Origin: Triparma columacea
Taxonomy: Eukaryota > Sar > Bolidophyceae > Parmales > Triparmaceae
Length of the DNA stretch: 26,724 bases
Direction: 5' to 3'
Assembly: GCA_030267965.1 (NCBI GenBank)
Contig: BRYA01001456.1
Location: 1-26,724, forward strand
Made by a program: the position numbers and the translations under genes. Positions 9,131 through 11,267 of the stretch are shown here, piece by piece. The notes beneath the pieces were generated by a model. It saw only the letters and a program-made list of their open reading frames with translations. It did not search any database and had not been told where the DNA came from. Numbering within the stretch: position 1 is the stretch's first letter; every line of letters begins with the position of its first letter.

Positions 9131-11267
9131 ATGAAAAATCTCTACCTGCCGTCCCTCCTCTTGGCCTTATGCCTCGTGCCTGCGACACCCTTTGTGCCCA
9201 TGTTCGGTAGATCCCAATTAAATATGAATCAAGGGTCAATTTCTCTTATACCTAAAACATATCACCGACTAAGTCCGCTACAATCCTCAATTAAACCACA
9301 AATTGAGACAACAGGGGAAGAAGCCATAGCAAGCATCGCGTCGGCAACTAGCAGCTCCGAGATCGAGTCCTTAAGAGTGTCGTTACTTGGAAAGAAAGGG
9401 TCCATCACTGGCATGATGTCGCTTATGCGAGATCTGCAGAATGAAGAGAAGAAGGAGTTCGGCCGTACTGTCAACGAGGTTAAGGGGAATATCGAGAAGG
9501 CGTTAGAGGCGCGTAAGGAGGAGGTCGAGAGGGAGGAGTTGATGGTCAAGATGGAAAGTGAGAGGATTGATGTCACAACACCTGGAATTATGTCCCAGGG
9601 AGTCGGGAGACGTCACCCACTCTCGATGACGATGGAGAGGGCGACAGAGATCTTCATGTCCTTAGGCTACGACACCGTGACCGAGTGCGAGGAGAGGTGA
9701 GTGAGGGGGGGCGAAGTAAGCTGAAATCGACTGCCAAGTGACCTTCCTGAGGAACGAGCAACACCCCACGCACAACAACAACAAAAACATCGGCGGGGTG
9801 GCCGCCCTCCTTCTACCCTCCCCTCACCCCACCCCCAGCCCCGAAATTGAGAGTGACTACTATTGTTTCGAGGCCCTCAATTGTCCCCCAGACCACCCCG
9901 CTCGTGACATGCAGGATTCCTTCTACCTTAACGACCCCGATGGTCCTGAGGAGACCTACATGCTCCGCACCCACACCTCCGCCGTCCAGATTCATCAGAT
10001 GGAGAAACGCAAGCCCCCCTTCAGAATCGTCGCCCCCGGGAGGGTCTACAGGAAGGACGATATCGACGCCACCCACAGCTTGATTTTCCACCAGGTCGAG
10101 ATTCTCGCCATTGAGGAGAGGGGGGTCCTCACACTGGGGGACCTCAAGGGGACTGTAGAGTACTTCCTTAAGCAGATGTTCGGCCCCGAGATCAAGGTGC
10201 GATTCCGCGGTTCCTACTTCCCCTTCACCGAGCCCAGCATGGAGGTTGACGTTTGGTTCCGCGGGAAGTGGCTCGAGGTCCTCGGCTGCGGAATGGTCGA
10301 TCCACGCGTGCTTGAGAAGGCCGGGATAGACCCGGAGAAATACAGCGGCTTCGCAGCAGGATTCGGGGCAGAGAGGTGAGAATGAAAGGTCATTAGGGAA
10401 AATCAGCGAAGACGTCAAAGGGGGACACAACTAACTCACAATTTTAACCCACCCATAAATCCCCCCCCCTCGTCGCAGGTTCGCAATGGTAACTTACGGG
10501 ATCACGGATATTAGGGAGTTCTACAATGGAGACTTGAGGTTCTTGGACCAGTTCCCGCACTTTAAGGACCAGGGGATGAAGGCTTTCCTCGAGGGGAGGG
10601 GGACCTCGGACGTTGAGGCGGAGGAGGGTGGGGGGGATAAGGAGGAGAAGGTTGAGAAGAAGGAAAAGAAGAAGGCCGACCCACCGGCAGCGGGTGCAGA
10701 ACTCGACATTAGCAAGCTCGAGTTCAAGGTGGGCACCATTACCAAGGTCTGGGAGCACCCTGACTCCGACAAGCTCTGGTGCGAGGAGGTAAGTAATGAT
10801 CGTTCGATAATTCTCACGAATACCTCTCACGCATTATCCCATTCCTCCTTTCGCAGATTGACTGCGGAGAGGAATCCCCCCGCACTATCTGCAGCGGTCT
10901 CCGCGCCCATTACTCTGCCTCTGACCTGGAGGGCAAGAAGGTGGTAGTTTTCAGCAACTTGAAAAAGAGGAAACTGGGGGGAATCCCGAGCGATGGGATG
11001 GTGCTGTGCTCGTTCACGGACGATGACAGCAAGGTGGTCCTGATCGAGCCCCCCTCAGACGCGGAGAACGGGGAGGTCTGCAAGTTCGAGGGGTACGAAG
11101 GCGAGCCGGCTACGGGGAACCAGATCGATAAAAAGAAAATGGTACAGGCGATCATGCCTGATCTGAAAACGGATGGGGACGGGAACGTTGTATGGAAGGG
11201 GGTGGAGATGAAGGTCGGGGGAGGGACTGTGGGGGGAGGGGGACTCAAGGACGTGCAGGTTGGATAA
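9131..11267 (+). CDS. pheS: Plastid phenylalanyl-tRNA synthetase alpha subunit fused to an EMAPII tRNA-binding domain
   Basis: Exons 9131-9696, 9839-10375, 10479-10788 and 10857-11267 join in phase to 607 residues. The enzyme charges tRNA-Phe. Residues 1-30 form a signal peptide (NLYLPSLLLALCLVPATPFVP) with Phe at the likely cleavage site, pointing to a complex plastid. The bacterial-type PheS coiled arm is at about 45-115 (LRVSLLGKKGSITGMMSLMR). The class II core runs to about 393, with PPDHPARDMQDSFYL, motif 2 FRIVAPGRVYRKDDIDATH, and motif 3 GFAAGFGAERFAMVTYGI. A charged linker (394-443, rich in Glu/Lys) leads to an EMAPII/Arc1p-like domain (444-607) with FKVGTITKVWEHPDSDKL, PRTICSGL, VVFSNLKKRKLGG and SDGMVLCSF. 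Core end, linker and the start of the EMAPII domain share one exon, so the fusion is not a splicing guess. Bacterial PheS needs PheT; red-lineage plastid genomes encode such a chain (syfB). Such a C-terminal EMAPII module is not usual for PheS. Confidence 0.93.

Follow-up and report, generated by a model that had tools for sequence, protein, structure and literature searches.

In P. tricornutum, as stated in the part of Gile et al. (PMC4494062) that deals with this enzyme, the prokaryote-type alpha subunit of phenylalanyl-tRNA synthetase (PheRS), named pheRS3, is encoded in the nucleus and the beta subunit in the plastid, and an excerpt of PMC6330437 lists Triparma among the red-derived plastids that retain syfB. 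The EMAPII-like fold, according to the relevant part of PMC11286949, grips the 3' CA end of tRNA, and its fusion to a synthetase raises the local tRNA and lowers the Km. In this study, which was based on a window comprising the whole stretch of 26,724 nucleotides of Triparma columacea contig BRYA01001456.1, we describe a gene in which a bacterial-type PheS is continued by an EMAPII module. The fusion is real and is common to Parmales and diatoms. With a probability of roughly two in three, we read the product as a plastid PheRS alpha chain that carries a once-gained eukaryotic EMAPII tail for the capture of tRNA-Phe.

The fused gene and its relatives

The gene lies at 9131-11267 on the plus strand of the window and comprises four exons that encode 607 amino acids. 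Its features are as follows:

9131..9696, +, exon 1: presequence, N-terminal coiled coil and start of the catalytic core (splice model, Pfam)
9131..9340, +, putative bipartite plastid presequence: signal-peptide-like stretch, Phe of ATP/FVP and stretch up to the mature protein (sequence, motif count)
9350..9544, +, PF02912 Phe_tRNA-synt_N, residues 74-138, 8e-21 (Pfam)
9566..10554, +, PF01409 class II PheRS core, residues 146-393, 3e-93, introns 1 and 2 inside (Pfam)
9697..9838, +, intron 1, GT-AG (splice model)
9839..10375, +, exon 2: most of the catalytic core; best NCBIfam match TIGR00468 pheS (splice model, NCBIfam)
10376..10478, +, intron 2, GT-AG (splice model)
10479..10788, +, exon 3: PheS end, linker and EMAPII start in one open frame (open reading frame list, splice model)
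10555..10698, +, linker, residues 394-441, with nine K and eight E among 48 residues (sequence)
10723..11075, +, PF01588 tRNA-binding OB fold, residues 450-544, 3e-25, intron 3 inside (Pfam)
10789..10856, +, intron 3, GT-AG, inside EMAPII (splice model)
10857..11267, +, exon 4: remaining EMAPII, C-terminal extension and stop (splice model)
11076..11264, +, eukaryotic-type EMAPII C-terminal extension, residues 545-607 (sequence comparison, model of a relative)

The PheS core ends at DLRFLDQF, and this motif, the K/E-rich linker and FKVGTITKVWEHPDSDKL are all located within exon 3; therefore, the joint between PheS and EMAPII requires no splice guess. The splice model and Pfam thus bore out the initial annotation, in which a single gene was claimed to hold the core end, linker and EMAPII start in one exon. 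The combinations of GT and AG tried at the three intron sites left two models open, one of 607 and one of 603 amino acids, with the first donor accounting for the difference of four residues, and the longer one was chosen because its relatives have the same length at the first junction (TVTELEDSPEIES in P0018 vs TVTECEESPEIES). The chain runs for 214 residues beyond the PheS core, and its PF01588 match scores 88.8 bits vs a curated cut-off of 27. In the corresponding linker of a Triparma verrucosa relative, the predicted local distance difference test score (pLDDT) was mostly below 50. The C-terminal extension behind the OB fold was found in the window sequence as well as in the predicted model of the relative P0018, which was aligned to residue 626 of 626.

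In a search with the full-length protein, which scored 7999 proteins, PF01409 and PF01588 occurred together in 108 of the best 120 matches listed; of these 108, 102 also had PF02912 and ten were transcriptome entries (MMETSP or CAMPEP labels). The assembly join at 10560-10700 that the initial annotation had allowed for is contradicted by these matches. The absence of PF01588 from the other 12 would be expected if an assembly join or a gene model had fused two neighbours, but the probability of such an artefact is negligible, and we rejected it because the joint is internal to an exon, the transcriptome entries span it and the protein ends of the relatives point the other way. Of 229 proteins inspected, 75 lack EMAPII and have a joint that can be recognised. 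In 73 of them, the letter that follows is one that a G|GTRNG donor would encode (T, K, M, A, E or R), as if the gene finders had entered an intron, whereas the fused chains had such a donor-like letter in 30 of 105 cases and L, M or V in 88 of 105. In addition, one of the 12 matches without PF01588, the T. laevis protein P0111, has the start of EMAPII and stops one residue past the CEE junction, which is the third donor of the window gene. An intron at the PheS/EMAPII joint is therefore probable in many diatoms, whose unfused gene calls would have been cut there, as judged from the protein ends of P0127-P0204. Such an intron is absent from the window gene, and the difference is a possible trace of exon joining.

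The bearers named among the matches listed were Triparma verrucosa, Chaetoceros, Seminavis, Cylindrotheca, Fistulifera, Epithemia, Mayamaea, Amphora and Durinskia baltica, the last of which belongs, in the part of PMC2873285 concerned, to the diatom-housing dinoflagellates. The named bearers among these matches were thus diatoms, Parmales and a diatom-bearing dinoflagellate. A search with residues 400-600 alone listed 17 proteins with one PheS fusion; it missed the fusions of the full-length search and is no gauge of the spread. The PheS of Gracilaria, Agarophyton, Rhodosorus and Pyropia, the four red algae with a name, was unfused, in a search for red algal and unfused PheS that covered proteins of about 136-434 amino acids, with long fusions outside diatoms beyond its reach. 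In bacteria, PheS ended 0-3 residues past the core match in 78 of 80 loci, and the two longer exceptions, L066 and L088, were attributed to a frame shift and a partial match. One named ochrophyte-like row, Chrysoparadoxa, was unfused, its protein being marked partial with an unsure C-terminus.

Some observations on single relatives can be added. The fragments P0194 and P0195 are 100% identical to the window protein across exon 2 (73% of the query) and differ from it in a translated stretch of intron 1, which indicates a very close relative in the public data. P0222 is a diatom-like PheS that switches inside the core to another, bacterial-looking sequence, which may be a misassembly or a real chimera.

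Compartment and origin of the PheS core

The N-terminus of the window protein, MKNLYLPSLLLALCLVPATPFVP, begins a putative presequence of residues 1 to about 70, whose highest eight-residue hydropathy mean within the first 32 residues is 3.44. In 73 of the 108 relatives, i.e., those that reach far enough N-terminally, this maximum had a median of 2.44 and a lowest value of -0.46; therefore, a clear hydrophobic stretch is not present in every relative. A small-x-small-F pattern at residues 10-48 was found in 70 of the 74 proteins of this set (window included), while 1000 shuffles gave a mean of 37.2 and a maximum of 48. This excess over the shuffles fits a plastid-like presequence, as proposed in the initial annotation. 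The other PheRS genes of the genome comprise an archaeal/eukaryotic-type alpha (contig C5), a beta of the same type (C745) and a mitochondrial monomer (C704), the latter two above the cut-off. As the cytosolic-type and mitochondrial enzymes are otherwise accounted for, the fused PheS is left for the plastid and is probably the alpha chain of the chloroplast PheRS. It would be imported into the plastid, where it would pair with the plastid-encoded SyfB as (alpha-beta)2.

The core, which had been called bacterial-type, proved to be of the cyanobacterial/red-algal type in the prokaryote search and the trees. Among the 80 loci kept from the search with the PheS core, the first 50 (L013-L062) had cyanobacterial titles, and in the PheS trees the cyanobacteria were followed by the red algal PheS and then by an ochrophyte clade (100/99), in which unfused relatives stood beside the fused Parmales and diatom rows. 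In a reduced tree, from which P0002, P0203, P0206, P0214, P0222, P0231 and P0242 were left out as long, partial or odd, the fused rows formed one clade (91/88) that needed one gain, and the four unfused ochrophyte-like rows grouped weakly (76/43). The fuller tree had 15 rows that were called red, four by a red algal name and 11 by likeness and tail, and its unfused ochrophyte-like rows were P0200, P0202, P0206, P0207, P0220 and P0242. In the reduced tree, P0018 (T. verrucosa) and the Triparma-like P0019 shared a group with the window PheS (100/99), and in a quick tree T. laevis P0111 adjoined P0019. The reduced tree fits a single gain of the fusion in the line of diatoms and Parmales. A cyanobacterial pheS would have arrived via a red alga, been transferred to the nucleus and been given a plastid presequence, and a eukaryotic module of the cytosolic type may have been gained once at its C-terminus before Parmales and diatoms split.

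The EMAPII module: donor and function

Only two of five PheT loci matched the window module, at 16.5 and 19.5 bits, whereas, of the other EMAPII modules in this genome, four matched at 110-146 bits and a fifth at 54.5. In a module tree with bacterial rows, the Parmales modules stood beside the bacteria on long branches; without these rows and without L005 of the same genome, the fused modules and P0001 formed one side (100/96), and the bacterial placement was therefore taken as long-branch attraction. A single group of the fused modules without P0001 was neither established by the tree nor rejected by the AU (approximately unbiased) test (p = 0.42). Judged by its sequence, the module is of the eukaryotic type, and the B2 domain of PheT was rejected as its donor on the bit scores and the module tree. 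Together with the C-terminal extension, these results bore out the donor that the initial annotation had preferred.

The tRNA-contact positions were mapped by residue spacing from the part of PMC11286949 that gives them. The window protein has K507, R509, S516, M519, D465 and K466 there. In the 108 fused relatives, K, R and S were found in all and M in 107, and the neighbouring positions held D/E in 106 and K/R in 106. The module looks like a retained tRNA binder whose affinity may be lower. A flexible linker would let each OB fold hold a tRNA by its 3' CA end, so that the local tRNA-Phe at the active site would rise and the Km fall before the end is handed over. Such a module would supply an added or substitute B2-like function that is carried on alpha instead of beta. 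The PheRS of E. coli reportedly tolerates the loss of B2 with a modest loss of tRNA binding and editing, in keeping with an auxiliary role.

One variant of this idea, a strong form of the compensation suggested in the initial annotation, is that the SyfB of red-lineage plastids lost its N-terminal B2 module and that EMAPII on alpha restores the function, which is possible but lies on the unlikely side. Plastid SyfB proteins tend to be shorter than bacterial PheT. An N-terminal module was seen by eye in eight bacterial PheT (seven cyanobacteria and one Moorella); therefore, the loss of B2 would be derived and would call for compensation. The repeated loss of syfB from plastids, as given in the portions of the literature consulted, places the enzyme under reduction. 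However, red algae also have a plastid syfB, according to the same kind of excerpts, and yet the PheS of the four named red algae carries no fusion; therefore, an early B2 loss alone does not force the fusion. Four loci that a bacterial PheT alignment matched in viral_contigs, with 30-34% identity, were taken as bacterial and not as plastid syfB.

PF01588 was found in six places of the genome including the fused PheS. One is the C-terminus of a bacterial-type glutamyl-tRNA synthetase (GluRS) at the end of contig C91 (minus strand), with weak NCBIfam matches and its N-terminus off the contig; its module groups with that of the GluRS-EMAPII protein P0016 (100/96). Another is a glutaminyl-tRNA synthetase (GlnRS; C342:53000-60500, minus strand; NCBIfam glnS and GlnRS/YqeY models) with a divergent C-terminal EMAPII and an N-terminus that is hydrophobic and then Ser/Lys-rich. 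As far as the relevant section of PMC4494062 goes, diatom mitochondria seem not to require GlnRS. The others, all named by eye, are a small EMAPII protein that stands alone and is Lys-rich in its N-terminal region (C510), a methionyl-tRNA synthetase (MetRS) taken as cytosolic and an AIMP1-like protein. Three of the six places may thus be on enzymes that are organellar or possibly so. The bacterial-type MetRS of this genome (C214) was not among the six; its open reading frame ends without a module, and a later exon is possible. P0001 is a bacterial-type MetRS with EMAPII, and its module nests among the diatom PheS modules with weak support (84/53), which would be a possible second transfer of the module between organelle synthetases, in either direction; an organelle MetRS may thus have been the source of the PheS module. 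That the line of Parmales and diatoms placed a eukaryotic tRNA-capture module on several organelle synthetases (PheS, a bacterial-type GluRS and a GlnRS in this genome and a bacterial-type MetRS in one relative), replacing the B2 function of the plastid beta chain, seems unlikely to us. If true, a functional domain has moved from a plastid-encoded subunit onto its nuclear partner.

The modules on the bacterial-type GluRS and on the GlnRS with a hydrophobic N-terminus would also be expected of a shared organellar module that serves as a tether in the manner of AIMP1 or Arc1p, i.e., in assembly or tRNA retention with little effect on aminoacylation, and both of these proteins work in complexes, as described in the part of PMC11286949 concerned. 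Nevertheless, domains for interaction, e.g., WHEP or GST, were absent from the Pfam scan of the fused PheS, and the positions that contact the tRNA 3'-end are strongly conserved, so we regard such a role as quite unlikely. The genes near the fused PheS in the window, a lipase maturation factor (11510-13318, plus strand), an isocitrate lyase (23186-24745, minus strand) and a GOST-type membrane protein (7463-8008, minus strand), showed no link to PheRS.

Several observations weigh against a once-gained module for the capture of tRNA-Phe. The position that corresponds to the stacking residue F78 of Trbp111 and R274 of Arc1p is V in 83, A in 9, M in 8 and L in 8 of the 108 fused relatives and G in the window protein. 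When all of the rows were kept, the fused label needed three changes, because two unfused rows fall inside the diatoms, namely P0203, which is cut at the joint, and P0222, which looks chimeric, and the quick tree of 99 rows, which took in cyanobacteria and other bacteria and no red algae, placed Parmales inside the diatoms at forks of 85-92 in the SH-aLRT (Shimodaira-Hasegawa-like approximate likelihood ratio test). No bacterial-type PheT was found in the assembly, in which the sole PF17759 match was the archaeal/eukaryotic-type beta; a search of the assembly for PF00124 (psbA/psbD) gave no match either, so no plastid DNA was found there. Finally, the EMAPII module may be redundant if SyfB keeps its B2 domain.

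Comparison with described systems

The initial annotation had left room for a fusion that was already known and widespread. It is shared by Parmales and many diatoms, but no description of it was found in the passages covered of the open-licence literature searched, and the main text of PMC4494062 has no word beginning with 'tRNA-binding'. Database entries with both domains are already named phenylalanine-tRNA ligase alpha subunit. As a feature of a universal enzyme, the fusion is a candidate synapomorphy of Parmales and diatoms, in which a nuclear subunit with a host tRNA module would be paired with a plastid-encoded subunit that was repeatedly lost in diatoms. This makes it a testable case of how enzyme complexes of organelle and nucleus re-divide their functions, with the prediction that the fused gene disappears along with syfB.

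EMAPII on synthetases and chimeric plastid proteins of ochrophytes are both already known kinds, the latter with 42 chimeric ancestral groups in the portion of PMC5462543 that reports them. As in those proteins, an endosymbiont enzyme is joined here to a domain of another origin; unlike them, the PheS fusion was seen, among the matches listed, only in diatoms and Parmales. The class II core and the N-terminal coiled coil are shared with bacterial and cyanobacterial PheS and with pheRS3 of P. tricornutum, whereas bacterial PheS does not have the long continuation of the window chain past the core. In contrast to AIMP1/p43, Arc1p, the C-domain of TyrRS and Plasmodium p43, the EMAPII module is located on a plastid-type class II PheRS alpha and does not keep the F78/R274 position. 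It resembles the B2 domain of PheT in being a PF01588 OB fold within PheRS, but on the other chain: B2 is N-terminal on beta and has no EMAPII-type extension, while the window module is C-terminal on alpha and carries one.
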